The notes beneath the pieces were generated by a model. The model saw only the letters and a program-made list of their open reading frames with translations. It had not been told where the DNA came from and ran no database searches. The translations under genes and the position numbers were made by a program. 47,975 nt of DNA, from IMG/VR virus record IMGVR_UViG_3300026321_000004, positions 1-47,975 of that record; one strand, given 5' to 3'. Numbering within the stretch: the first letter of the stretch is position 1; the number at the start of each line of letters is the position of its first letter. Origin of the DNA: a virus. Below are positions 25,099 to 38,323 of this stretch, in pieces.

Positions 25099-25875
25099 AT
25101 GTCAAATTTAATAACGTCAGACCAAGTTGAGGATTGGGTAGAGAACTCAATGCACTATGGGATGACAAGGGAGCAAATCAAGAATTTTGTCATCAATGGT
25201 AATGTAACAGATTTCAAACAACTTCGACAGGTCTTAGTAGAGATCGAAAGTAGAAATCATGAGAGAAAGAAAATTTCATATGACTTGCGAAGAAAGGAAA
25301 TAAAGATCAAACAATTAGAAGCAAAATTAGAAGTAGAAGATGACCCCTTTGAAAGGGAATTTATTGAATTAGATATTGCTGAATACAAATTAGACTGTGG
25401 TAAATTCAAAGTCAATATTCGTCAGTATGATAGTGAACTTCAACCTTTCATTGATTATATTAATAATAATTTCAGTAGTATTGAAGAAATGGAAAAGGCT
25501 GCTGAATATAATGAGGAGACTGAAAGGAAATATTGGATTGCTCGTATGGGTAAGCAAGCTGCCATTGACATCTATGCTACTGGTAGGATAGGTATTGGTA
25601 ATTTGGATTCTATTGCTATGATGCCAGAGGGTGATCAGATATATGCAGTTAATATTGCTATGCAATATGCTGGTCTTCTTAATGCTGGTGTTGCTAAGAT
25701 ACAGAATGAACTAAAACCATACTTAGATAAATTATTATCAGATGGTTCTGCCGCTAGACTTCCAACCTTTGATAGGATTGAGGATAACCTTAATCTTGAA
25801 CTCTTTAATAATTTGACAGGTAATACTAATGAGCAAAAAAGTCTTCAGTCTCCCAATCAACCCAAAGCTGAGTGA
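25099..25875 (+). CDS. Hypothetical protein with long coiled coil (258 aa)
   Basis: Residues about 45-130 form a strongly charged helical region (RNHERKKISYDLRRKEIKIK, then QLEAKLEVEDDPFEREFIEL) predicting a coiled coil. Residues 155-215 are a more hydrophobic globular part (GKQAAIDIYATGRIGIGNLD, then AVNIAMQYAGLLNAGVAKIQ). The C-terminus is polar (NTNEQKSLQSPNQPKAE). The last 47 bases overlap the start of the next gene in a different frame. The protein is unlike the fibres in composition. Its place between an unrecognised gene and the U32-like/methyltransferase gene offers no clear function. An assembly or scaffold role would fit but is not shown by the sequence. Confidence 0.65.
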   Translation: MSNLITSDQVEDWVENSMHYGMTREQIKNFVINGNVTDFKQLRQVLVEIESRNHERKKISYDLRRKEIKIKQLEAKLEVEDDPFEREFIELDIAEYKLDCGKFKVNIRQYDSELQPFIDYINNNFSSIEEMEKAAEYNEETERKYWIARMGKQAAIDIYATGRIGIGNLDSIAMMPEGDQIYAVNIAMQYAGLLNAGVAKIQNELKPYLDKLLSDGSAARLPTFDRIEDNLNLELFNNLTGNTNEQKSLQSPNQPKAE

Positions 25876-27562
25876 AGACTTTGTAGTTAATACATTTCTT
25901 CCATTCTTAAAAGAGTATCGAGAATACATATTAGATCTATACTTCACCTGTAGGATCCCTCCTTTTGATCAGGATGCTATGGGTGATGTTTTTATGCAGC
26001 CTGAAGCTTTAATATCATCTGCATGTTATATCTCCAATCAAAGTAATATACCATTATCTGCTACCTTTAATAATATATGGGTACGACCCGATCAAAAGAA
26101 TTTAGATGATTGGATTGAGAACTTTGCTCCCATTTATAATGTAGGTGCCAGAGTAGTAACTCTTCCCCATACATCATGGGTATCTAGTGGTCAGATCCAA
26201 CAGGCATTTCCAGATCTGTTTATTAAGAATACTATTCTAAGAGAAGTAACTAAAGCAAATGAAATAGTATCATTAGCAGAAGCAGGTTTCCATTATATAA
26301 ATCTTGACCGTGATCTTATGAGAGATCAGGATCAATTACTTGAGATAAGAAAAGCAAAGGATTATTGTGCATACCTAGGCAAACCAGTAATGATCTCTAT
26401 GTTAGTCAATGAGACATGTTGGGGTGGTTGTCCTATCATGCCAGAGCATTATCAATATAATAGTACTAGGGAAGGTAAGGATCCAATATACTTTGCAAGT
26501 CCTATTAGTAGAGTGTCATGTTCCACATGGGATGTACAACACCCTGAGTATGATTTAAAACAAGCAAACTTACCACCATGGAGAGAGGATTGGGTTGAGA
26601 TGCTTGGCTTGGGTATTGATGTATTCAAGTTACATGGTAGAGAAAGTATGATGAGACTTCAAGAGAGTATGGATCTCATCAAAAGGTGGGCAGATGAAGA
26701 AGAATATATGTTCCCTGAGTACAAGAAGTACCAGTCAGAAATGAAGATGAAAGATGCTCCTATTAATATATGGAGGGAGAAGATAAAGACATGTAAGTTT
26801 GATTGTTGGGATTGCAACTACTGTGAGGCAGTTATAGAATCTCATATGAAGAAAGCAGATTTGGAGGTACATCCACAAGTTGAAACTTGTATGGAAGCAT
26901 TTATAAATTCTGGAAAATACATATCTAATCATAAGACATATGATCCTAATGATCCAAATGCTTACTATAATGTACCTGGTTTATCATCACCTAGAGTAAG
27001 GCATTTCTTAAATAACTTGTGTTCCCAGGAAGGTGCGGTCTATCTTGAGGTAGGTGTGTATGCTGGTTCTACATTCTGTGCAGCTATACAGAACAATGAT
27101 ATGGTAGCAGCATATGCAAATGATAATTGGTCACAACCAAACCTTCAACCAGCTAGAGAAGATATTAATTTAGAATTAGAAGACGTTACTGTTAGCACCT
27201 TTGTTAAAAATTTACAGACTAATATAACAACAGATAGTTTGGATTTTGACATTCAAGTTCTTAATGGTGATTCTTCACAGTTAGGGAAGAAGGACTTCAA
27301 GCAGGATGTAAATATAATTTTCTATGATGGAGATAATGCTGAACATAAGATGGTAGAATTCTTCACAAGAATGTTAGACTTCACTGCAAATGTTTTTACT
27401 CTTGTAGTAGATGATGCAAATATAGAAGATAATGTGAGGGTGACTAAAACGTTTGTTGAGAAGATGGGTCTTAAGATTCTTTACGAAAGAGAGTTATTGA
27501 ACGACCAAGAGGATCTTAAAATGTGGTGGAATGGACTATACGTTTTAGTCTTAGCTAAATAG
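25829..27562 (+). CDS. U32-like Cys-rich protein fused to a SAM-methyltransferase-like domain (577 aa)
   Basis: Residues about 60-335 resemble the peptidase-U32/UbiU-like barrel fold. The supporting features are FHYINLDRDLMRDQ, VNETCWGGCPIMPEHYQYN with C197 and C201, SRVSC with C231, and DVFKLHGRESMMRLQES. Residues 322-332 add a dense cluster C-x3-C-x2-C-x2-C (C322, C326, C329, C332), likely an Fe-S or zinc site. Residues about 385-577 look like a class I SAM methyltransferase: YLEVGVYAGST (405-415, glycine-loop motif I), YDGDNAEH (499-506) and VVDDAN (526-531). U32-family proteins take part in hydroxylation and tRNA/quinone modification with Fe-S clusters; that role is family knowledge, not shown here. 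The start overlaps the upstream gene by 47 bases. Substrate is unknown. The U32 call is moderate and the methyltransferase call is somewhat better. Confidence 0.6.
   Translation: MSKKVFSLPINPKLSEDFVVNTFLPFLKEYREYILDLYFTCRIPPFDQDAMGDVFMQPEALISSACYISNQSNIPLSATFNNIWVRPDQKNLDDWIENFAPIYNVGARVVTLPHTSWVSSGQIQQAFPDLFIKNTILREVTKANEIVSLAEAGFHYINLDRDLMRDQDQLLEIRKAKDYCAYLGKPVMISMLVNETCWGGCPIMPEHYQYNSTREGKDPIYFASPISRVSCSTWDVQHPEYDLKQANLPPWREDWVEMLGLGIDVFKLHGRESMMRLQESMDLIKRWADEEEYMFPEYKKYQSEMKMKDAPINIWREKIKTCKFDCWDCNYCEAVIESHMKKADLEVHPQVETCMEAFINSGKYISNHKTYDPNDPNAYYNVPGLSSPRVRHFLNNLCSQEGAVYLEVGVYAGSTFCAAIQNNDMVAAYANDNWSQPNLQPAREDINLELEDVTVSTFVKNLQTNITTDSLDFDIQVLNGDSSQLGKKDFKQDVNIIFYDGDNAEHKMVEFFTRMLDFTANVFTLVVDDANIEDNVRVTKTFVEKMGLKILYERELLNDQEDLKMWWNGLYVLVLAK
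27554..27561 (+). promoter_or_regulatory. Late promoter-like motif GCTAAATA
   Basis: This differs from the T4 late motif TATAAATA at two positions but keeps TAAATA. It overlaps the stop of the U32-like/methyltransferase gene (AAA TAG) and ends 30 bases before the next start. The related forms upstream of gp18 and gp20 share CTAAATA, which supports a variant of the late motif in this phage. Activity is inferred. Confidence 0.4.
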
Positions 27563-27591: not shown

Positions 27592-29343
27592 ATGTCACAG
27601 CTTAACGTAGGTGTTCTTAATGCTACTGGTGGTGTTCAACTCCCTGCCATTGCCACATCTAATTTACCTGGTTCAGGTATTAGTGCTGGATATATGGTAT
27701 ATGATAGCACAGAAGGACAAATAAAAATTTGGGATGGTGTCAAGTGGATGAAGGTCACAGACGCTACCGTTAATGCAACAGGTGGTGATGAGACTTATGA
27801 CATGGGATATTACAGAGTTCATAAGTTTAAAAGTTCTGGATCTTTCAACGTAACTGATACTAGTAGTAATGCAAAGATGGACTTCCTCATCGTCGCTGGA
27901 GGCGGTGGTGGAGGTTGCTCTGATGGTAACTGCAGTAATGGTGGCGGTGGTGCTGGAGGAATTGTATATAAGTCTAACATCCCTCTACCTAAAGGAAATT
28001 ATCCTGTAGTTATTGGATCTGGTGGAGCAGGTTATTATAACCAAGATACTAAAGGAGATACTGGTGGAGATACTACCTTCTTCGGATACACTGCCTTAGG
28101 TGGTGGTGGTGCTGGAGCAGGTGGAAGTAATGATAGTGGTAGAGGTCGTACTGGTGGATGTGGTGGTGGAGGAAGTCACCCATACGGCGGTAACAGAGCT
28201 GCAGGATTGCAACCATCCTCTGCTAGTGGTGGATATGGAAACCAAGGTGGAAACTGTACTCCCTCATCCCCCGATTGGGGTGGTGGTGGCGGTGGAGGCT
28301 GCGGAGAAGATGGAGAAGATGGCCAGAACACTCGTGGTGGACACGGTGGAGATGGAATGCTATTTAATATTGATGGTACTTCTAAATGGTATGGTGGAGG
28401 TGGTGCAGGTGCTAACTGCAACAACCCAAACAATAATGTTCAGCCAGGTGGATTAGGTGGTGGCGGTATTGCTGCTGGAACCATTGTTGGTGGAACAGGT
28501 GGTAATGGATATGGAGGAGGCGGCGGTGGTGCTGGCTATCCAAACAGAAGAGCTGGAGGTGGTGGTAATGGTGTTGTGATTGTTAGATATCCTATATCAA
28601 CTGTAGATGCTACTATTGGTGGATCTTCAGGTAATCCTGCTGTTAGTGCTGCAGCAATTCTTGCTGCCAATCCAGGCGCAGGTGATGGAACATATTGGAT
28701 CAAACCAGCTGCTTATGGCGGTAGTGCTCAAGAGATTTACTGTTGGATGACTGCTGGTGGATGGATGTTAGTAGCATCTAACAATGCAAGTAGTGGTACA
28801 ATACCAGGTGGTAATAGTAGAAGAAGTTCTAGTTATTTCTTAGATAGATCTGGTGCCCTTGGATCTCCTGATCCAAACAACGATTATATTATTGGTGGTA
28901 TGATTAACAACCTTGATTTCCAGAGTGTAAGATCTTTAGGATGGGGTTGGCAGAATGCTGGTGGTAGTAACAGCTGGAGTTCTGCTTTAAATAATCTTGG
29001 AACTTGGGTTCAATGTGAGTGGACACTCGCCACGAGTGGTGCTGACAGATTGATTGAAGTTAATCCTAGAAGTCAAGTTCTTGTCACACATAGTGGTGGT
29101 GGACTAAGTTCAAGTGCTGGTTATTTCTCACTTGATGGTATTAAACAAGACTATACTCAAGGTGGATTTAATGCTAACAGCAACCAAACTTCAGTCGGTG
29201 CTGTTGGTGTAAATGGAAACAGTGGTGACCCTTCAACTGGTTGCTATTGGGGTCATGGATCTTCTGAAGGTAATTATGAAGGTTGGTATGCATCCAACAA
29301 CAATAACGGAGACAGCCGCGGATACACAACATGGGTTAGGTAA
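27592..29343 (+). CDS. Adhesin with glycine-rich and fibrinogen-like regions (583 aa)
   Basis: Residues about 1-65 are a fibre-anchor segment (MSQLNVGVLNATGGVQLPAI, then YMVYDSTEGQIKIWDGVKW) like those in neighbouring adhesins. Residues about 75-340 form a glycine-rich domain that begins with FKSSGSFNVTDTSSNAKMDF followed by LIVAGGGGGG. It continues with many GGGG runs, as in the Gly-rich adhesin domains of T-even-like fibres. Residues about 361-583 resemble a fibrinogen-type C-terminal region: GDGTYWIKP, IYCWM with C384, GGWMLVASNN. The calcium loop and distal Cys pair are less clear than in the 313-aa adhesin. A host-surface adhesin whose poly-glycine loops could vary is the likely role. 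The gene is preceded by a late-like motif. Confidence 0.75.
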   Translation: MSQLNVGVLNATGGVQLPAIATSNLPGSGISAGYMVYDSTEGQIKIWDGVKWMKVTDATVNATGGDETYDMGYYRVHKFKSSGSFNVTDTSSNAKMDFLIVAGGGGGGCSDGNCSNGGGGAGGIVYKSNIPLPKGNYPVVIGSGGAGYYNQDTKGDTGGDTTFFGYTALGGGGAGAGGSNDSGRGRTGGCGGGGSHPYGGNRAAGLQPSSASGGYGNQGGNCTPSSPDWGGGGGGGCGEDGEDGQNTRGGHGGDGMLFNIDGTSKWYGGGGAGANCNNPNNNVQPGGLGGGGIAAGTIVGGTGGNGYGGGGGGAGYPNRRAGGGGNGVVIVRYPISTVDATIGGSSGNPAVSAAAILAANPGAGDGTYWIKPAAYGGSAQEIYCWMTAGGWMLVASNNASSGTIPGGNSRRSSSYFLDRSGALGSPDPNNDYIIGGMINNLDFQSVRSLGWGWQNAGGSNSWSSALNNLGTWVQCEWTLATSGADRLIEVNPRSQVLVTHSGGGLSSSAGYFSLDGIKQDYTQGGFNANSNQTSVGAVGVNGNSGDPSTGCYWGHGSSEGNYEGWYASNNNNGDSRGYTTWVR

Positions 29344-29346
29344 ATT

Positions 29347-29781
29347 ATGAATTATCCAGATAACGGACCATCTATGGATGATGGTTTTGAATACTTTGCA
29401 TTGGTTAATAATGAGACACATATGGTTGAAAATGTGATATGCTGTAGTAGTCTTGAAAAATTCCAAGAACTACAACTAGCTATGGGGCAATTGCCAACTG
29501 GTGAAGCCAGATGGATCCCTGCTAATAAGCGTACTCGTAAACCTTCAAAGGGAAATCATTACTCTGTAGAGAAAGGTGTTTTCTATCCAAGGTCGTTATA
29601 TAAATCTTGGATTCTTAATGAAGAAACTATGTATTGGGAGCCTCCTGTACCAAAACCACAAGAGGAATTTGATCCTGAAACTGGCGTTTTAGTTCTACAA
29701 TGGTTGTGGGACGAAACAAATAAAGAATGGATATCGCAGACATGCGCTAATTGTGAGCCACCAAATTCAGATGAACTCTAA
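29347..29781 (+). CDS. Small hypothetical protein (144 aa) with W-rich C-terminus
   Basis: The start follows the adhesin stop by 3 bases. The sequence begins acidic and aromatic (MNYPDNGPSMDDGFEYFALV). A basic central segment follows (ANKRTRKPSKGNHYSVEKGV). The C-terminus (YWEPPVPKPQEEFDPETGVL, then LQWLWDETNKEWISQTCANC) is Trp rich with a CxxC pair. The W-x-x-P-x-P segment followed by VLQWLWDETNKEW is a pattern I associate with small proteins of marine T4-like phages, of unknown function. It sits between an adhesin and the oxygenase run and overlaps the next gene by 11 bases. A fibre-linked role or a partner of the oxygenases are both possible. Confidence 0.6.
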   Translation: MNYPDNGPSMDDGFEYFALVNNETHMVENVICCSSLEKFQELQLAMGQLPTGEARWIPANKRTRKPSKGNHYSVEKGVFYPRSLYKSWILNEETMYWEPPVPKPQEEFDPETGVLVLQWLWDETNKEWISQTCANCEPPNSDEL

Positions 29782-30355
29782 TTTTATAGAAGAATATCCA
29801 AAATCAATATCAAGTCAAGATTGTTTAAGATTAATACAGCAGTTTGAAATAAGTAGTGATCTTCATGCTCCAGGTGTAACTACCATAGGATATGATGAAG
29901 ACATTAAAAAGGATACTGAGATAACAGTTACTAATAGAATGCTTGGTGATGAGCAGTGGGGTGATGCTATTACTCCAGTTCTTATTGCTCTTAACAAGAA
30001 TATTGAAAAGTATAAAAAGGAATATACTATTGATTCTGGATTAGACGACTTATCTAGATGGGGTCTTGAACCACCAGGAATTAACTTCCAAAGGTTTTTA
30101 CCTGGAGAGGGATATAAAAAATGGCATTGTGAATCTCCCTGCAAAATATCTAGCAAACGTGTTCTAGTATGGATGCTTTATTTGAATACGATAACTGATA
30201 AGGGAGGTACAGACTTTCAGTATCAGGACTTTACATGCAACGCAGAATCTGGTAAGATGGTTATATGGCCACCTTATTGGACACATTTCCATCGGTCACA
30301 AGTAAGTCCATCTTCGGTGAAATATATTATGACTGGTTGGTTCTCGTATGTATAG
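29771..30355 (+). CDS. 2OG-Fe(II) oxygenase-like protein, copy 1 (194 aa)
   Basis: The frame extends upstream to a GTG at 29753. The ATG at 29771 (MNSNFIEEYPKSIS) is preferred because it is a standard start and shortens the overlap with the upstream gene to 11 bases. The C-terminal half has a double-stranded beta-helix oxygenase pattern: FQRFLPGEGYKKWHCE with iron ligands H119 and E121 (H-x-E instead of the commoner H-x-D), VLVWMLYLN, GGTDFQYQ, KMVIWPPYWTHFHRSQ with the distal His at 172 or 174, and K184 as a possible 2OG anchor. Enzymes of this type use Fe(II), 2-oxoglutarate and oxygen to hydroxylate proteins, nucleic acids or small molecules. The substrate is unknown. It is the first of five such genes in a row. 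Confidence 0.7.
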   Translation: MNSNFIEEYPKSISSQDCLRLIQQFEISSDLHAPGVTTIGYDEDIKKDTEITVTNRMLGDEQWGDAITPVLIALNKNIEKYKKEYTIDSGLDDLSRWGLEPPGINFQRFLPGEGYKKWHCESPCKISSKRVLVWMLYLNTITDKGGTDFQYQDFTCNAESGKMVIWPPYWTHFHRSQVSPSSVKYIMTGWFSYV

Positions 30356-30896
30356 GTATCTTTGGTATGATACACAGTTGCCAGAAAGGTTCTGTGATGA
30401 GATTAGAAATGTTCTAGAAGGAAATGAAGGAAGATTAGAAAGTGCCAAAACACTTGGGGATGCAACATCCCATATAAGAGATAGTGATAATTATTGGATA
30501 CCAGATTCACATTGGATTAATTCATTCTGTAGTCATTATATAAATCTTGCGAATAGAGAGAATTTTAAATATGATATCTATCCTGGATATCAGAATAGTG
30601 TTATACAATACTCATTATATAAACAGAATAAATTTTATGGATGGCATACTGATACTGTTCATGATGGTGAAGAGGAAGCACGTAAGTTATCTTTTTCATT
30701 ACAGTTAAGTAATTATGATGAGTATACTGGTGGTGATCTTCAAATGATGGATGAAGAAAATCAAATGTATATTGGACCGAAGACAAAGGGAAGTATAATT
30801 ATTTTCGATTCAAGATTAAGACATAGAGTTAGGAAGGTTACTTCTGGAGAGAGGAGATCACTCGTTGGATGGGTGATGGGGCCAAGATGGAAATAG
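30348..30896 (+). CDS. 2OG-Fe(II) oxygenase, prolyl-4-hydroxylase-like, copy 2 (182 aa)
   Basis: The start overlaps the upstream gene by 8 bases. The sequence fits the prolyl-4-hydroxylase/PKHD-type 2OG-Fe(II) superfamily well. H100 and D102 appear in FYGWHTDT, ARKLSFSLQLSNYDEYTGGD supplies central strands, SIIIFDSRLRHRVRKV holds the distal iron ligand H159, and the 2OG-binding arginine R169 (or R170) sits in ERRSLVGWV. The length matches compact bacterial and phage members. All ligand residues are intact, so activity is likely. Protein hydroxylation is the commonest role in this subgroup, but the target here is unknown. It is the clearest oxygenase of the five. Confidence 0.85.
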   Translation: MYRYLWYDTQLPERFCDEIRNVLEGNEGRLESAKTLGDATSHIRDSDNYWIPDSHWINSFCSHYINLANRENFKYDIYPGYQNSVIQYSLYKQNKFYGWHTDTVHDGEEEARKLSFSLQLSNYDEYTGGDLQMMDEENQMYIGPKTKGSIIIFDSRLRHRVRKVTSGERRSLVGWVMGPRWK

Positions 30897-31468
30897 AATC
30901 AGTATTCCTACATGACCTTGTAGATATTTCTCCATTCGCACATTTGGGTAAAGAACACTACGATCAGTATAAGATTGTTCCCAAGGGTATTGAAATTAAA
31001 TGGAAGAAGACTAGAGGTAATTGGAGCATATCAGATACCACTGAACCCGAACAAGTTCCTGGATCAATATCAGTATACAATCACCCAAGTTATGAGGTTC
31101 TTCATAGAATAGTAAAACAACATTTAGAGAAAGAATATAAAGTTAGATTATATCCAACATATTATTTTGAAAGGATTTATACTAATGGTCAGGAATTATC
31201 TCCACATGTCGATAGACCTGCTTGTGAATGGAGTGTCAGTTTACATATATCAAGTGATATTGACAAACCTTGGCCCATTTATTTTGAGCATAGAAGTGGA
31301 ATAGAACAATATAGTTCTGTACCTGGAGATGCTGTTCTTTATAATGGAACAAAAATTAAACATTGGAGGGAACCATTACACTGTGAACCCAATCAATACT
31401 ACCATCAGTTATTTTTACATTATGTAAATGCAGATGGTCAATACTGCCAACATGCTTTTGATCAATGA
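30869..31468 (+). CDS. 2OG-Fe(II) oxygenase-like protein, copy 3 (199 aa)
   Basis: An AGGAG sequence at about 30852 supports the ATG at 30869, although it is a little far. The ATG at 30887 (MEIESVFLHDL) is an alternative with a 10-base overlap. The oxygenase pattern runs YYFERIYTNGQELSPHVDRP with H113 and D115, ACEWSVSLHISSD, WPIYFEH, VPGDAVLYNGTKIKHWREPL with distal His at 165, then YHQLFLHYVNADGQY. The last part is typical of phage and marine bacterial 2OG-Fe(II) enzymes whose C-terminal strand ends in a QxFLHYV-type segment. The substrate is unknown. The stop overlaps the next ATG (ATGA). Confidence 0.75.
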   Translation: MGDGAKMEIESVFLHDLVDISPFAHLGKEHYDQYKIVPKGIEIKWKKTRGNWSISDTTEPEQVPGSISVYNHPSYEVLHRIVKQHLEKEYKVRLYPTYYFERIYTNGQELSPHVDRPACEWSVSLHISSDIDKPWPIYFEHRSGIEQYSSVPGDAVLYNGTKIKHWREPLHCEPNQYYHQLFLHYVNADGQYCQHAFDQ

Positions 31469-31968
31469 AAATTCTTAAAGAAGTACTTTCTGATAGTACT
31501 CTCAGTACAGTTCAGAAATATATTCATGACAATATGGGATCTTTTAAGTGGTCTTCTAGTGAGATACAATGGAACCCAGGGTTGAGGATAGGTGTTGTTG
31601 GTTCTTGTTTAATACAGGAAACAACCCAAGAGTTAAGAGATTTAATTATTCCTGAGATCAAACCCCTAGTACCAGAGTGTAATGACATTGCTATAAATTA
31701 TCATTTGTGGCAAAGAGGTTCTGGGATATCGGGACACACTGATAAAGACTATGAATGGGGTGCTACTCTTTACTTAAATGAAGAATGGCATTATAATTAT
31801 GGTGGATTGTTCTGTTGGCAACCAAAGGATGAAGAAACGATGAGAGCTATAACACCATTGAGGAATACATTAGTTCTTAATGATGATCAGGAAGTTCATT
31901 TTGTTACTACTATTTCTCCTGAGTGTCCACAGTATAGAGTAACATTACAGATATGGGGTAAGAAATGA
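31465..31968 (+). CDS. 2OG-Fe(II) oxygenase-like protein, copy 4 (167 aa)
   Basis: The start overlaps the upstream stop in an ATGA. Residues 75-167 form a compact oxygenase core: INYHLWQRGSGISGHTDKDY with H91 and D93, ATLYLNEEWHYNYGGLFCW with the usual GGxF turn, TPLRNTLVLNDDQEVHFVTT with distal His at 145, and CPQYRVTLQIWGKK with R158 in the 2OG-binding place. The gene is short but carries every expected ligand. No second domain is present. It forms part of a translationally coupled row with its neighbours, and its substrate cannot be read from sequence. Confidence 0.8.
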   Translation: MKILKEVLSDSTLSTVQKYIHDNMGSFKWSSSEIQWNPGLRIGVVGSCLIQETTQELRDLIIPEIKPLVPECNDIAINYHLWQRGSGISGHTDKDYEWGATLYLNEEWHYNYGGLFCWQPKDEETMRAITPLRNTLVLNDDQEVHFVTTISPECPQYRVTLQIWGKK

Positions 31969-32660
31969 TTGAGTTGAATTCATTATTATTTGAGATCAAT
32001 GATAATTACACAGTAGAAGAACAATATATTGGCAGTCTTAAAAGTAAGGTTGTTACTATAGATAACTTTTTAAAGTATCCAAATGAACTTAAAGCTTTCT
32101 TAGAATCTATTCCTGTACAGAAAACAATATACGAAGGTAAGATGCCCAAGGGATTTTATCCAGGAAGTCAGACTTATATGACATATCACTTTGGGGATAT
32201 TGATGAATGGTTAAGGCATCACATGTATCAGTTCTTTGGATATAGACCACCCTATCTCAATATCTCTTGGCAGACTATTGATGGTAATCAAAAAGTATAT
32301 GCACAATCAAATACTCCACACACAGATCATTTGACTATAGCTGGTAATATATTTTTAAATACTCCAGAGGAAATTGATGGAGAAACTGGAACAGGGTTCT
32401 ACCGATTAAAAGAAACTGGTGAAGAATATGCTGATGGTAAATGTCTGTATAGAAAAGAAAGATATGGATCCCTAAGTCCTGACCTTTCTTTAACTGAGTT
32501 TAATCCTGGTAAGGACAGTGAGAGATATGAATGCTATCACATATCAGAAGCTAAATTTAATAGACTTAATTTATATGAAGGAGGTCTCTTCCATAACATA
32601 TACATTGAGGAAGGATCATTTAGGGATAACCCTAGAAAAACATTATCCGTAATAGGATAA
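31965..32660 (+). CDS. 2OG-Fe(II) oxygenase-fold protein, DUF6445-like, copy 5 (231 aa)
   Basis: The start again overlaps the previous stop in ATGA. This copy is longer and of a different branch. SKVVTIDNFLKYPNELKAFL opens the domain, SNTPHTDHLTIAGNIFLNTP has H119 and D121, TGTGFYRLKETGEEYADGK supplies an inserted loop, LNLYEGGLFHNIYIE has the distal His at 210, and DNPRKTLSVIG places R224 at the end. The arrangement resembles DUF6445-type oxygenase-fold proteins; I base that on recalled layout, not a search. It ends just before a GATAAATA motif, closing the five-gene oxygenase run. Confidence 0.7.
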   Translation: MIELNSLLFEINDNYTVEEQYIGSLKSKVVTIDNFLKYPNELKAFLESIPVQKTIYEGKMPKGFYPGSQTYMTYHFGDIDEWLRHHMYQFFGYRPPYLNISWQTIDGNQKVYAQSNTPHTDHLTIAGNIFLNTPEEIDGETGTGFYRLKETGEEYADGKCLYRKERYGSLSPDLSLTEFNPGKDSERYECYHISEAKFNRLNLYEGGLFHNIYIEEGSFRDNPRKTLSVIG

Positions 32661-32684: not shown

Positions 32685-32873
32685 ATGGACGCTGAAAAAA
32701 TGGTGCAAGAGTTCACCGATCAATTGAAAGAGCAGAAAGCAACAGTTGTTGAACTTGAGAAGCAACTCAAATCCCGTAACGAACAGGTGTTGAGATTAGA
32801 AGGTGCAATTGAAGCACTTAACATGACACTTAAGGAGCCTGAAGAAGATGGTGATGAAGTCAAGTCTAGCTAG
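32685..32873 (+). CDS. Small coiled-coil protein (62 aa)
   Basis: A short protein that is almost all amphipathic helix (QEFTDQLKEQKATVVELEKQ, then LKSRNEQVLRLEGAIEALNM) with an acidic tail (EEDGDEVKSS). It recalls the 68-aa coiled-coil gene before the first giant fibre. Both precede a large gene module, have acidic tails and overlap the next gene's start (26 bases here). A trimerisation or attachment helper is possible. There is no family match I can name. The late-type motif upstream supports expression as its own late unit. Confidence 0.65.
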   Translation: MDAEKMVQEFTDQLKEQKATVVELEKQLKSRNEQVLRLEGAIEALNMTLKEPEEDGDEVKSS

Positions 32874-33177
32874 ACAACAAGAGCATATCGATGCTCGCCT
32901 TATTAAAACAGAATTTGATGGAACATTAGACACCTGCCCCTACAAGGTAGGTGATCTTTATGATGAACGGCCAATCATTTCCATTGGGTTCACTGAGAAT
33001 GTTTATGGGAAGTATTACCATATCATTGTAGAGAGAGGTAGGGCACATACTCGAATGAAATTTGAATTTGATCAGAAGCATGATTTAAAATTCAGTAAAC
33101 CAGTTGAGAGAATGATTCCTGCTGCCAGTATGGATGTACAGAAGTATCTTAAAATAGCAGAAACAAATAAGACATAA
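32848..33177 (+). CDS. Small hypothetical protein (109 aa)
   Basis: It overlaps the coiled-coil gene by 26 bases. The start may be the ATG at 32848 or the in-frame ATG at 32854 (MKSSLARQQEHIDARLIKTE). The sequence has a central strand pair (RPIISIGFTENVYGKYYHII, then VERGRAHTRMKFEFDQKHDL) and a short C-terminal helix (SMDVQKYLKIAETNKT), consistent with a small alpha/beta fold. No catalytic motif was recognised. Its stop codon lies inside a late promoter motif that leads the protease gene, so it ends an upstream transcription unit. Function is unknown. Confidence 0.6.
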   Translation: MVMKSSLARQQEHIDARLIKTEFDGTLDTCPYKVGDLYDERPIISIGFTENVYGKYYHIIVERGRAHTRMKFEFDQKHDLKFSKPVERMIPAASMDVQKYLKIAETNKT

Positions 33178-33205: not shown

Positions 33206-36200
33206 ATGAAGCGGGTAGTCGTTAGGGTAAATGACAAATATAGCTTGGATTCAGCATCAGCTGCTATCTTAAGACTATATGGATATCTTACCTACGTAGA
33301 TTCTTATAGAAGTTTTCAGATCATTACTTTTGATTGCCCTCAGAGGTATCAAGATAATCTTCTTGACCAACTTAGAGCTCTGAACGTTGTTAAGAGAGCA
33401 AATTGGGATGAGGAGAAATATTCTTGCGATCCTGTAGTAGAGGGGAACAGTTTAGAAATTTCTACTAGTGGATCAACATCACTAAACACTGTTGGTGAAG
33501 GTGCAGCAACAGCTAATACTAGAAACTTAACTGGAAGTGGTTCAGGTACCATCTATGTAAAGGTACAGAACTTTAGTGGTAATAATTTATACGTATTCTC
33601 TTCTAGTCAGGGTGGAACTTATTCGTTATATACAAATCAAACTGGTTTCCTTCAAGGTGCTACATATACGTTTGATCAATCAGATTCATCAAACACTGGA
33701 CATCCTTTAAAATTCTCTGCCACTCCTGATGGTCCTAATACTACAGGTGGAGCAGAATTTACAAGTGGTGTAACTATTTCTGGTACACCAGGTACGAATG
33801 GTACAACTCAGATAGTTGTTGGTGCGTCCACACCATCTGTCTTATACTATTATTGTGGTGCACATCCTAATATGGGTAGGTACTCAACAGCTAGTCCATC
33901 AAGATTTGGTACGATTAATATACATGACTACTGGCACTTAGACAGAATAACAAAGCAAGACAGGCAATATTTAAACGGAACCTTCAGTTATAATCAATCA
34001 GGTGATGGTGTTGACATCTATGTAATTGATACAGGTGTCCGTGGAGCAAGTAGACCAAGTGGTAACAACGCTGCTCTACATCCAGAACTATATGACCCAG
34101 ACTTTGTATCTGATCTAAACGGTACTTCAGAGCAACAGAACTACAGGGTATATGAGGTAGGTGGATTTACTTCATCCTTCGGTACCAATGAAGATGATAA
34201 CGGACACGGTACTTACTGTGCTGTATTATCTGCTGGTAGGACTGCAGGTATTGCTAGAGATGCAAAGATCTATGCATTGAAAGCATTCAACTCTGGACTG
34301 TCAGGATCTTATACTAATATATTAGCTGCATATCAGGCAGTCATTGATCACAATGATTCTGGTCATGCCAATTATAAAGGTAATACCAGACCTGCTATTC
34401 TTAATTGTTCTTTTGGTCCCACCATACCAAGTGAAACATATCCTTATGTTGAACTGAATGATAGTGGAGATGACAGTGGAACTGACGAAGAAATGTTAGA
34501 TGACATTGAAGGTACAATTGCTACTGCAAATAAGATTATTGTTGTAAGATCTGCTGGTAACGGATTTAAGAATGCTAGTGATGCATTCGCTGGACCTATT
34601 CAAGGTAAGTGTATTGCTGGTACAAGAACTGCTGGATATGATGATAATGCAGTTGGTGGTATTAACAACGTAGATACTAATCAAAATAAGATCGCAGTTG
34701 GTGCTACAGAGTATAATGATAGATGGGCAGACTTCTCTAACTATGGTGCTGGTGTAACTACAGTTGCTCCAGGTGCTAAAATTCTTACCCCTGCATATGA
34801 TTGGACTGCCAATACACCATATACAAGTACTGGTAACTATAGTACTATTAATGGTACATCATTCTCTGCTCCTATAGTAACTGGTATCATGGCAGCATGG
34901 GCAGGAGCTAATGGGTATTCTTTAACTACAAATAATATATGTGGTCTTGCAAAAACTTTAGTTAGAACTTCTGGAAGTACGGGAGACATAACAAAAGCTG
35001 CTGTTGGTGCATATCCTACTAACAGTATTGAAGATAAAAGATTAATTGACAATCCATTTGAAACAACTAATACATCCAATCAACTTATTGTAAAGTTTGA
35101 TCCTGCAGACTCAGCTCATTTTATTGGTAATGTTGGTAAGAAATGCCAGTTAAGAACAAGTGGATCTACTGGTGCATTGACAGTTGGTGGTATTGATATT
35201 GCTGGATTATCACAAAGTGGATGGTTAACTATCCAAGCAGAGAGTGCTGTTAATAATACTATTACTGTATATGCTCTTACTAATGCTACTGCTGGTACTA
35301 CTGGTGGTGGTACTGGAAACTACTTAGCATTAATCGATCCAGAAGCAAAAACTCATGAAAGTATTGATGGTGTTGTAGCTACATCAACAACATTAAGATC
35401 CCAGACAGATATACAAGAAGCTGCTGGTACTGGAACTTATACAAATGTAATTTATTATCCATTAGACACTGGTGTTGATTTCAACTATGCTTCTTCTGGA
35501 TCTACTATCACAACTAAACGTGGTGTATTCTTCCCTTATGTTGATACCAACGTAACATGGCAAACTTCATCTGGAGCATTATCTGGAAGTCCTTATGATA
35601 ATGCTGCTAGTGTTAGTATTGATTTAGGATTGAGTGGTACAACGTTTGCAAACGAACCAACTTTAGAAGCTTATACTCTCAGTGGAGATAGTATTGCTGC
35701 TTCTGGTCTTGCTTTGGATTCTGCTACAGGTATGTTAACTGGTACAGTTACATCTGCTTATCAAGATTCAACATTCAATTTCACTGTAACTGAGAATACT
35801 ACACAGAATGCTCGTGCATATTCTTTCGTAACAACAGGAACTGGTGTTATTGTTACAGTAACTCAGCAACCAAGTAGTACTTCTGTTGAAGCAGGTGCTG
35901 GAACAAATGCTACTTTCGGTCCTGTCTCAGGTATTAGTTCTGATGGATCTACCATCACGTATCAGTGGCAGTACTCTAGTAATGGTGGAGTTGGTTGGTC
36001 TGATGCAGTTAATGATAGCAATTACTCTGGAGTAACTACAAATACGATAACCGTTGATGATAATTTTGCACTGAATAGTTATCAGTTCCGTTGTAAGATG
36101 GATACTGCTACTGCAGTGGTACCTTCTTATACTAATGCTGCTACGTTAACTGTATATCGTACTATAACTATTAACACGCAACCAACAGATCAACAACCAG

Positions 36201-38323
36201 TTGCACCTGCTGCTGCGACCTTTACTACTGGTGGTACCACTCTAGATGGTGCATCTGTTTCTTACCAGTGGGCAAAATCTGAGAATGGAGATGGTGTAAA
36301 TTATAGTAATCTTCCTGGTGAGACTAATACAACTCACAATACTGGTGCTACAACATACGATGCTAGTTATGGAGACTACTACAGATGTTTACTATCCTGT
36401 CCTGGTGCAACCAATGTAACAACTAATGTTGCTAGAAACTTAGTACAGAGAACAATTAGTGTTACTTCACAACCAACAAGTACTACAGGTGCTGTTGGTG
36501 GTACAGAAAGTTTTGGTGTTGCTGGTACTACATCTGATAATGATGCTGGAGATATCACATTCCAGTGGCAGGTATCTATCACAGGTGGTTCTTCATGGTC
36601 TGATGTATCTGAAGGATCTGGTGGTACTACCGCAACTTATACTACACCTACATTAACTACAGCATACGATGCATATCAATATCGCTGTTTGCTTTCATGT
36701 ACAGGTGCAACAACTATACCATCTAATGCTGCTACTTTGCAGGTAGAGACAGTAACAGTTGTAGTATCAACTCACCCAGTTGCTGCTACAGTAGATGAAA
36801 CTGCTACTGCAACGTTTACTTGCTTAGGTGATGTTACTATGACACCTTTCGGTGGCAATGCTGCATCATCATCATTCGAGGTAGATCAATTTGATACTCC
36901 TGCTGGTGGTGGAGGAGGAGGTCTTGAAGCTCAGTCTCATCACGAACCTTCAGTGACATATCAATGGGAGCGTTCAGATGATGCTGGTTCTAACTGGAGT
37001 ACAGTTGCAGGAGCAACTAGTGCATCATATACAACTGCTGCAACAACATATGCTGCGGACAATCAAGATCAATATCGTTGCAAATTAGATGCTACTGGAG
37101 CTGCTGCTTCTGCATATACAAATGCTGCAACTCTAACTGTTGAAAGAACATTCTCAATCACAGCACAACCATCTAACCAGACTGCTAATGAAGGTGGTAC
37201 TGGAACCTTTGCTATAACCACATCTACAAGTAGTGGAAGTGCAACTTATCAGTGGGAAAGATCTGATGATGGTGGTTCAAACTATGCGAGTGTGGGAGGA
37301 GCAACCTCTTCTTCTTATACAACTCCAACATTAGTATTTGCTAATGATGGTAACGATCGTTATCGTTGTGTAGCATCTCTTGTTGGTGCTGCTGCAACTA
37401 TTACTTCTAACTATGCATTACTAACTGTTCTGCGTGTTATTAATATATCAACACAACCTCAAGCACAAGCTGTTATTGAGGGTAACACAGCTACCTTTAG
37501 TATTGTTGCTACAATTACTAGTGATGTAATTACATACCAGTGGCAGAAGTCTGTTGATGGTGGTTCTAGTTTCACTAATATTAATGGAGCAAGTGCTGCA
37601 TCATACACTACACCTGCTACTACATATCCAACAACTCCATCAGAACAGTTCCGTTGTGTTCTTAGTAACCCAGCTGCAACTTCAGTAACTTCTAATGCAG
37701 TAACTCTTACTGTTAATGAATCTGAGTTTGTATCTGGTCCTGCTTCAGTGACACCTGTTATTGATGCTGATACTAATAAAACTCTCTCAAGACAACCAGT
37801 AATTAATACTGCACCATTCGTTCAGGAGTATGCTGGATCAACTCACTTCTCCTCATTCTGGAGAATAAGAAGAGTTAGTGATAACGTAACTGTATATGAT
37901 ACAGCGGGTTCATTTGCTCAAGGAGATACTGGTAATAAGACATCTCTTACTGTACCTGCTGCAACTTTAGACTTTGATGTTGCTTACGCAGTACAGGTTA
38001 AGTTTAGAGATAACAATGGATTGGAAAGTGCATACACTTCTGCTGTAAACTTTACTACTCCTTTTGTTGATCAACCAGAAATTCAAACAATTACACCAGC
38101 ATTCAATCCAACAATTAATGTTGATGCTATTGCATTGAAGACTGGATATCAACATACCTCTAGTGATTGGCAATTTGCACCTGCAGCAACCTTTGCTACT
38201 ATTGTTCACCAATCTCTTGGCAACTCAACTAACTTAACATCGTACACCCTACCAGGTGCTGTTAACCTTAGTGCCAACACTACATATTATGTACGAATAA
38301 GATTTAACGTTAATCCTACCTAA
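33206..38323 (+). CDS. Subtilisin-like serine protease with cupredoxin-like segment and Ig-like repeats (1705 aa)
   Basis: Residues 1-70 look like an I9-type propeptide (MKRVVVRVNDKYSLDSASAA). Residues about 112-225 are cupredoxin-like (YTFDQSDSSNTGHPLKFS, then YYYCGAHPNMG) with candidate copper ligands H166, C217, H220 and M223. Residues about 255-590 are an S8 protease with an intact triad: D275 in IYVIDTGVRG, H334 in DNGHGTYCAVLSA, S552 in NGTSFSAPIVTGIMAAW, plus oxyanion N452 in RSAGNG. Residues about 880-1505 hold six Ig-like repeats and the end looks like fibronectin-III-type sandwiches. No signal peptide or membrane helix is seen. It lies directly upstream of neck gp13, so a virion-bound protease that trims virion or host-surface protein is likely. 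Confidence 0.85.
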   Translation: MKRVVVRVNDKYSLDSASAAILRLYGYLTYVDSYRSFQIITFDCPQRYQDNLLDQLRALNVVKRANWDEEKYSCDPVVEGNSLEISTSGSTSLNTVGEGAATANTRNLTGSGSGTIYVKVQNFSGNNLYVFSSSQGGTYSLYTNQTGFLQGATYTFDQSDSSNTGHPLKFSATPDGPNTTGGAEFTSGVTISGTPGTNGTTQIVVGASTPSVLYYYCGAHPNMGRYSTASPSRFGTINIHDYWHLDRITKQDRQYLNGTFSYNQSGDGVDIYVIDTGVRGASRPSGNNAALHPELYDPDFVSDLNGTSEQQNYRVYEVGGFTSSFGTNEDDNGHGTYCAVLSAGRTAGIARDAKIYALKAFNSGLSGSYTNILAAYQAVIDHNDSGHANYKGNTRPAILNCSFGPTIPSETYPYVELNDSGDDSGTDEEMLDDIEGTIATANKIIVVRSAGNGFKNASDAFAGPIQGKCIAGTRTAGYDDNAVGGINNVDTNQNKIAVGATEYNDRWADFSNYGAGVTTVAPGAKILTPAYDWTANTPYTSTGNYSTINGTSFSAPIVTGIMAAWAGANGYSLTTNNICGLAKTLVRTSGSTGDITKAAVGAYPTNSIEDKRLIDNPFETTNTSNQLIVKFDPADSAHFIGNVGKKCQLRTSGSTGALTVGGIDIAGLSQSGWLTIQAESAVNNTITVYALTNATAGTTGGGTGNYLALIDPEAKTHESIDGVVATSTTLRSQTDIQEAAGTGTYTNVIYYPLDTGVDFNYASSGSTITTKRGVFFPYVDTNVTWQTSSGALSGSPYDNAASVSIDLGLSGTTFANEPTLEAYTLSGDSIAASGLALDSATGMLTGTVTSAYQDSTFNFTVTENTTQNARAYSFVTTGTGVIVTVTQQPSSTSVEAGAGTNATFGPVSGISSDGSTITYQWQYSSNGGVGWSDAVNDSNYSGVTTNTITVDDNFALNSYQFRCKMDTATAVVPSYTNAATLTVYRTITINTQPTDQQPVAPAAATFTTGGTTLDGASVSYQWAKSENGDGVNYSNLPGETNTTHNTGATTYDASYGDYYRCLLSCPGATNVTTNVARNLVQRTISVTSQPTSTTGAVGGTESFGVAGTTSDNDAGDITFQWQVSITGGSSWSDVSEGSGGTTATYTTPTLTTAYDAYQYRCLLSCTGATTIPSNAATLQVETVTVVVSTHPVAATVDETATATFTCLGDVTMTPFGGNAASSSFEVDQFDTPAGGGGGGLEAQSHHEPSVTYQWERSDDAGSNWSTVAGATSASYTTAATTYAADNQDQYRCKLDATGAAASAYTNAATLTVERTFSITAQPSNQTANEGGTGTFAITTSTSSGSATYQWERSDDGGSNYASVGGATSSSYTTPTLVFANDGNDRYRCVASLVGAAATITSNYALLTVLRVINISTQPQAQAVIEGNTATFSIVATITSDVITYQWQKSVDGGSSFTNINGASAASYTTPATTYPTTPSEQFRCVLSNPAATSVTSNAVTLTVNESEFVSGPASVTPVIDADTNKTLSRQPVINTAPFVQEYAGSTHFSSFWRIRRVSDNVTVYDTAGSFAQGDTGNKTSLTVPAATLDFDVAYAVQVKFRDNNGLESAYTSAVNFTTPFVDQPEIQTITPAFNPTINVDAIALKTGYQHTSSDWQFAPAATFATIVHQSLGNSTNLTSYTLPGAVNLSANTTYYVRIRFNVNPT
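35851..37719 (+). repeat. Six Ig-like repeats in the protease protein
   Basis: Units start near 35851, 36168, 36460, 36759, 37156 and 37440. Each begins with an I-x-x-Q-P-like strand, holds a Y-Q-W-(Q/E/A) Trp, and ends with Y-x-(F/Y)-R-C before SNAATLxV. The fourth unit carries an insertion with a GGGGGG run and an Ala/Ser-rich loop (36837-36950). Ig-like repeats of this kind decorate phage virions and bind cell-surface polymers. Confidence 0.7.

Follow-up and report, generated by a model that had tools for sequence, protein, structure and literature searches.

Why does a marine phage carry five consecutive oxygenase genes inside its late structural region, and what do their products act on? 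Few extra genes are as common in marine phages as those for 2-oxoglutarate (2OG)- and Fe(II)-dependent oxygenases, and what these enzymes are for has so far been obscure. The question was addressed in IMG/VR record IMGVR_UViG_3300026321_000004, which comprises 47,975 bases from a marine cyanobacterial-type virus; the whole stretch was analysed and is called the window here. In the window, five overlapping oxygenase genes, named A to E, follow the genes of a glycine-rich (Gly-rich) fibre and a small linker protein. Comparison of viral genomes indicates that this array is exchanged between viruses together with the fibre gene and the linker, which is a new finding. Because array and fibre gene are swapped together, we hypothesized that the array probably modifies the Gly-rich fibre chemically.

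The linkage was searched from the side of the fibre gene rather than that of the enzymes. This search returned 21 contigs, one of which ended inside the fibre gene. All of the 20 contigs extending past the fibre ran on into A and B, and in those of sufficient length C was present as well and the oxygenases numbered four or five. Array membership varied (A-B-C-D, A-B-x-C or A-B-C-D-E). In three contigs (L244–L246) the fibre was just 63% identical, D was absent and another 2OG family was located between B and C; even at this distance the fibre, the linker and A-B-C remained together.

A natural comparison with and without the array was provided by the closest cultured relatives according to the terminase gp17, the Prochlorococcus phages P-HM2, MED4-213 and P-HM1 (85–86% identity; P-HM2 86%). 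The slot of P-HM2 had the same left flank as in the window (homologues of p1417, p1604, p1409 and p1458) and the same right flank (coiled coil, phrog_26228, S8-type fibre and gp13). Between these flanks, P-HM2 encoded a 301-residue fibre lacking the Gly-rich domain, together with an unrelated 148-residue protein, and no oxygenase. In P-HM1 and MED4-213, the slot was occupied by another protein pair and one 2OG gene. The Gly-rich domain family PF21722 had no match in these three genomes. The initial annotation of this DNA had mentioned the neighbouring fibre as a possible target; this proposal was strengthened by the fibre–array linkage and by P-HM2, and the fibre would now be the best-supported candidate substrate. 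With such a genome pair at hand, the purpose of phage 2OG oxygenases becomes directly testable. The upstream genes p1417–p1458 were rejected as partners of the array, since they were missing from L242–L246, which carry the array, and present in P-HM2, which does not.

Similar gene orders were present in more distant cyanophages. In S-RSM4 (genes 144–138), a Gly-rich protein and a linker-like protein were followed by five oxygenases, and in S-SM1 (genes 049–061) a Gly-rich protein and a linker-like protein were followed by A, B and, further on, two C genes. The linker-like proteins of both phages were weak homologues of phrog_7759 in the equivalent position. Both loci thus resemble the window in having a Gly-rich protein, a linker-like protein and then an array with A and B types, but they lack D and E, and their Gly-rich protein has no C-terminal domain (in S-SM1 it is a separate gene). 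S-SM1 differs further in having approximately nine oxygenases.

The array was surrounded by T4-like late genes, with gp13–gp19 homologues downstream and baseplate wedge and giant fibre genes upstream, in agreement with the coupled unit inside the late structural region that the initial annotation had described. Its five genes at 29771–32660 were present exactly as given there, with overlaps of 11, 8, 28, 4 and 4 nucleotides (linker-A, A-B, B-C, C-D and D-E, respectively; Table 1). The sister contig IMGVR_UViG_3300020470_004206 (L013) retained all five genes with identical overlaps. The ratios of nonsynonymous to synonymous substitution rates (dN/dS) between the window and this contig were low (A 0.24, B 0.10, C 0.15, D 0.13, E 0.19). 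Because of the retained overlaps and the low dN/dS, A to E were considered real genes under purifying selection. The A-B-C-D block was also retained in more distant contigs (L021–L032, 47–68% identity). The presence of E in this block was restricted to the window and its closest relatives.

Table 1. Features of the fibre and oxygenase locus in the window
Feature	Position	Strand	Description
Gly-rich fibre ("glyfib")	27592..29343	+	583 residues, 24.5% Gly; PF21722 Gly_rich_2 in the middle (Pfam, 7.6e-23); fibre-type C-terminal domain; proposed substrate
Small linker protein phrog_7759 ("pre7759")	29347..29781	+	Between fibre and array; 11-nucleotide overlap with A
Oxygenase A, prolyl-4-hydroxylase-type	29771..30355	+	194 residues; ligands H119, E121, H174; K184 for 2OG
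Oxygenase B, PKHD/PiuC-like	30348..30896	+	182 residues; ligands H100, D102, H159; R169
Oxygenase C, phrog_2954	30869..31468	+	199 residues; ligands H113, D115, H165; Q180 and R167 invariant, no canonical Arg/Lys
Oxygenase D	31465..31968	+	167 residues; ligands H91, D93, H145; R158
Oxygenase E, DUF6445 (PF20043), phrog_1644	31965..32660	+	231 residues; ligands H119, D121, H210; R224; N199 also invariant
Coiled-coil protein phrog_580	32685..32873	+	Conserved right border of the slot
phrog_26228	32848..33177	+	Conserved right border of the slot

All five genes had been proposed to encode the 2OG-Fe(II) fold. A, B and D were assigned to it by matches above the Pfam cut-off, and C and E by AlphaFold2 models compared with the PDB in Foldseek. 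The initial annotation had allowed for three or more of the five falling outside the fold in profile or structure comparisons; none did, and we consider the fold of all five nearly certain. A (27.2 bits) and D (27.5 bits) barely exceeded the cut-off of 27 bits for PF13640 (2OG-FeII_Oxy_3), and B matched this family at 5.9e-16. In profile searches against the PDB, A matched the bacterial prolyl 4-hydroxylases 3itq and 5hv0 (7e-14 for 3itq, over profile positions 9–186 and thus nearly the whole length). B matched PKHD hydroxylases (3dkq, 5.7e-12; PiuC, 3e-8), as well as NF003974 at 6.4e-18, under the cut-off of that family. D matched PolD (9blq, 2e-5) and PasI (9ei6, 3e-4). Judged by sequence, A is akin to the bacterial prolyl 4-hydroxylases over the catalytic domain, yet it is not classed as one of them here. 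A and B differ from these sequence-detectable relatives, the bacterial prolyl 4-hydroxylases and PiuC, in being members of a coupled array.

The HxD/E...H iron triad was conserved in all five family alignments. The motif residues listed in the initial annotation were all present, and the ligands of B (32 sequences), C (61 viral-contig sequences), D (6 sequences) and E (44 sequences) were invariant, as were R169 of B and R158 of D. In E, the three ligands, N199 and R224 were the sole invariant positions. The list needed amending for A (23 sequences), in which the invariant distal histidine was H174 instead of H172, K184 was an unlisted invariant basic residue of the 2OG-binding type, and E121 was a Glu/Asp position. 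A conserved basic residue after the distal histidine, of the type that binds 2OG, was present in A, B, D and E; in C, none was conserved at the usual 2OG anchor. Each gene had also been thought to come from a different branch. C, D and E were indeed separate, whereas A and B formed one broad group (hhalign 97.6%).

C had no Pfam match and is labelled as ferrochelatase in PHROGs. Searches of PDB sequences with the C and E profiles gave nothing usable, and profile comparison of C with B or D found no tie, so that folds were needed to identify C and E. The model of C, built on the alignment of 61 relatives, had a predicted local distance difference test score (pLDDT) of 94.8 and a predicted template modelling score (pTM) of 0.90. 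The 50 best PDB matches listed were all 2OG-Fe(II)-type enzymes, with no ferrochelatase among them. Template modelling scores were 0.59–0.62 with prolyl 4-hydroxylase (P4H), PHD2 and amino-acid hydroxylases versus 0.46–0.52 with AlkB. The ferrochelatase family PF00762 matched none of nine phage records with "ferrochelatase"-type genes, compared with 8 of 14 control genomes, and phrog_2954 matched none of these 14. C was therefore rejected as a ferrochelatase.

Sufficient sequence upstream was available for 92 distinct viral C genes, and 85 of these had a 2OG oxygenase gene as their direct upstream neighbour; 68 of the 85 neighbours were B-like, and the commonest overlap was 28 nucleotides. In ACG-2014f, a C match followed by a B match formed a single open reading frame labelled ferrochelatase, indicating a fusion. 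A ferrochelatase beside a 2OG oxygenase has been described in pelagiphages (PMC9599517), and the same pairing was reported for seasonal marine viruses, named as phrog_2954 and phrog_61 (PMC11561400). These are the C and B types of the present array. The published pair was read as a heme enzyme and an oxygenase; since C has an oxygenase fold, the pairing is, on present evidence, a pair of oxygenases. No correction of the phrog_2954 label was found in the literature searched. Its reassignment removes a published "ferrochelatase" auxiliary gene, together with the inferences on viral heme and iron metabolism drawn from it.

E matched DUF6445 at 1.1e-16 and is labelled "minor coat protein" in PHROGs. 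Its model, built on the alignment of 44 viral-contig relatives, had a pLDDT of 90.6 and a pTM of 0.90, and the best Foldseek hits in the PDB were the 2OG-Fe(II)-type enzymes ABH2, PolD, LH3 and PHD2. Independent sequence support came from Syn9 gp52, which matched DUF6445 and, weakly, 2OG-FeII_Oxy_3 over the C-terminal region. The family profiles of E and A aligned at 83% probability. The predicted fold and the invariant iron ligands of E point to an enzyme, and the minor coat protein was set aside in favour of an oxygenase. A fold and an iron site can thereby be assigned to DUF6445, of which no mention was found in the literature searched. The oxygenase assignment of both the "ferrochelatase" and the DUF6445 families is new. 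Three DUF6445 genes occurred directly in tandem in the uncultivated phage contigs L159 and L205.

A third label was also affected. Syn9 genes labelled "DNA endonuclease V" (phrog_274, near B and D) matched 2OG-FeII families only, below cut-off, and no endonuclease family in Pfam. Genes with "DNA endonuclease (V)" labels that belong to 2OG-Fe(II) families were Syn9 gp51 and gp53, S-SM1 053–054 and S-RSM4 138–139, placed by Pfam for Syn9 and by hidden Markov models built in this analysis for the other two phages. The label looks wrong in cyanophages in general.

The initial annotation regarded five such genes in a row as unusual. This did not hold: comparison with cultured cyanophages revealed runs of four to approximately nine, and uncultivated contigs had runs of five to six. 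Syn9 gp49–gp54 are six overlapping genes of JmjC-type, A-type, 2OG, DUF6445, 2OG and C-type; gp49–gp53 each had a 2OG or JmjC Pfam match, several of them below cut-off. The Syn9 run resembles that of the window in that its genes overlap and include A, E and C types, but differs in order and membership, with the JmjC-type gene first, and in lying approximately 8 kb from a Gly-rich gene. Its gp50–gp54 are annotated as 2OG, endonuclease V, minor coat protein, endonuclease V and ferrochelatase. Five oxygenase genes were present in S-RSM4 138–142, about nine, with interruptions, in S-SM1 051–061, and one B-C pair plus a separate run of four in P-RSM4 and S-MS29. Uncultivated contigs contained other combinations of four to six oxygenases. 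Because all these genomes carry them, oxygenase arrays are recurrent, and mislabelling hides them. S-SCSM1, with 24 2OG-Fe(II) genes in all (PMC9602691), shares a large repertoire with the window, including a D relative (37% identity), but this relative is located among replication genes without an adjoining fibre.

In phage Sf-CH11 (L040, 2741–4297), the slot upstream of gp13 likewise contained an oxygenase array, here with a tryptophan 7-halogenase gene inside it. In S-SCSM2R (L045, 2878–6405), the gene of a 427-residue C-type protein preceded three glycosyltransferase genes, one of which belongs to family 25; this gene order could be compatible with hydroxylation and subsequent glycosylation.

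The C family was also found in bacterial genome assemblies. In Dyella sp. ASV24 (L229, 449–6453), C was clustered with a 54-residue peptide, a radical SAM protein, a C39-peptidase ABC exporter, a PF13640 oxygenase and DUF6817; the peptide had a double-glycine leader and a Pro-containing end. Leader peptide, radical SAM protein, exporter, 2OG oxygenase and C were retained in two more genomes of the same family as Dyella (L256, L257). In three other genomes (L258–L260), the gene beside a more distant, longer C relative encoded another kind of small peptide, Pro-rich at its end. Two unrelated peptide types thus accompany bacterial C-type oxygenases. This arrangement, which resembles a ribosomal-peptide pathway, suggests that C-type enzymes can act on peptides. 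A peptide substrate would also fit A, among whose solved relatives the bacterial prolyl 4-hydroxylases are nearest.

We propose that the array is a fibre-maturation module. A to E would be produced late, translationally coupled, together with the Gly-rich fibre and the small linker protein, and would hydroxylate side chains of either of these two proteins before the virion is assembled. Hydroxylation could then alter the stability or the receptor-binding chemistry of the fibre tip. This full mechanism, with the fibre as substrate, is held tentatively and given somewhat less than an even chance. The multi-step hydroxylation pathway of the initial annotation was not favoured, as the varying membership is equally compatible with several independent modifications and with an ordered pathway. 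Nor does the fibre point to hydroxylation of the classical collagen kind, because its longest run of collagen-like GXY repeats was 18 residues. A more speculative extension, possible but rather doubtful, is that fibre cassettes of marine T4-like phages are exchangeable, the Gly-rich fibre coming with its own peptide oxygenases. Diversity of the receptor-binding tip would then arise from hydroxylation at multiple sites in addition to sequence, and the widespread "ferrochelatase" would be one such oxygenase, related to enzymes of bacterial leader-peptide pathways.

Several observations weigh against fibre maturation. The fibre-seeded contigs are related to each other (63–100% fibre identity), so that part of the linkage is expected from vertical descent alone. 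The linkage is supported by a count in ten cyanophages, where 9 of 12 Gly_rich_2 genes were within 3 kb of a 2OG gene (mean of 2.4 in rotated genomes, with 0 of 2000 rotations reaching 9), but this sample was non-random, several genomes having been picked via a C or fibre match. Arrays without a nearby PF21722 gene occurred in S-SM2 and at the ACG-2014f fusion, and in Syn9 that gene is at the distance given above. The T4-type late promoter motif TATAAATA was absent near the array and no more frequent in the window than expected by chance; late expression is consequently suggested by position alone. C has no conserved Arg or Lys at the usual 2OG anchor, with Q180 and R167 invariant instead in the viral alignment, which makes 2OG use by C, whose iron triad is conserved, the least sure assignment among the five putative enzymes. 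The neighbours of most bacterial C genes were unrelated.

Other roles were considered alongside fibre maturation. The target of the oxygenases might be a sugar, a lipid or a molecule resembling a natural product, located in the host envelope or the virion, given that PolD and PasI are the nearest solved relatives of D and that carbamoyltransferase, tryptophan-halogenase and glycosyltransferase genes adjoin related oxygenases in P-RSM4, S-MS29, Sf-CH11 and S-SCSM2R. However, no carbohydrate- or lipid-active gene was recognised beside the array in the window, and the array comes after the fibre; we consider this role unlikely, with a small but real chance. An auxiliary metabolic role, in which the enzymes act on host metabolites or drain 2OG and thereby sway nitrogen sensing and energy during infection, was proposed by Sullivan et al. 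2010 (PMC3037559), and several 2OG genes are common in T4-like cyanophages. A drain on 2OG could do without five divergent active sites and without a fixed site beside one fibre type, and P-HM2, with flanks identical in kind, has no array in the slot, which renders this explanation improbable.

The slot could also be a hotspot of gene accretion in which the oxygenases have unrelated targets. Such hotspots of variable genes have been described in cyanophages (PMC3037559), and array membership and order do vary widely among phages. Against this, the 2OG gene upstream of C is near-constant at testable viral loci, ACG-2014f has a fusion of C with B, and the fibre, the linker and A-B-C are not separated even where the fibre is 63% identical; mere accretion is decidedly improbable. 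Repair of alkylated DNA or base hypermodification by AlkB- or TET/JBP-like enzymes would agree with AlkB and ABH2 as the fold hits of C and E with the lowest E-values, and DNA repair was suggested for the Syn9 homologues (PMC2984593). Yet the model of C fits P4H, PHD2 and amino-acid hydroxylases more closely than AlkB, the sequence matches of A and B are to protein-type and PKHD hydroxylases, and the array is located in the structural region, apart from replication genes. A role in nucleic-acid modification or repair is thus very doubtful.

In a contig assigned to a Maricaulis metagenome-assembled genome (L226, 232–4830), genes for a 2OG oxygenase, C, a methyltransferase and another 2OG oxygenase faced those of three tail-collar-domain proteins. 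This is possibly a phage contig, again with oxygenases beside fibre-type genes. Two further proteins encoded near the array in the window were conserved in P-HM2. The 577-residue protein at 25829–27562 (phrog_1458) had a Cys-containing N-terminal half, a weak C-terminal methyltransferase match and no PDB sequence match. The 1705-residue protein at 33206–38323, just upstream of gp13, contained a subtilase (PF00082) domain and Ig-like repeats.

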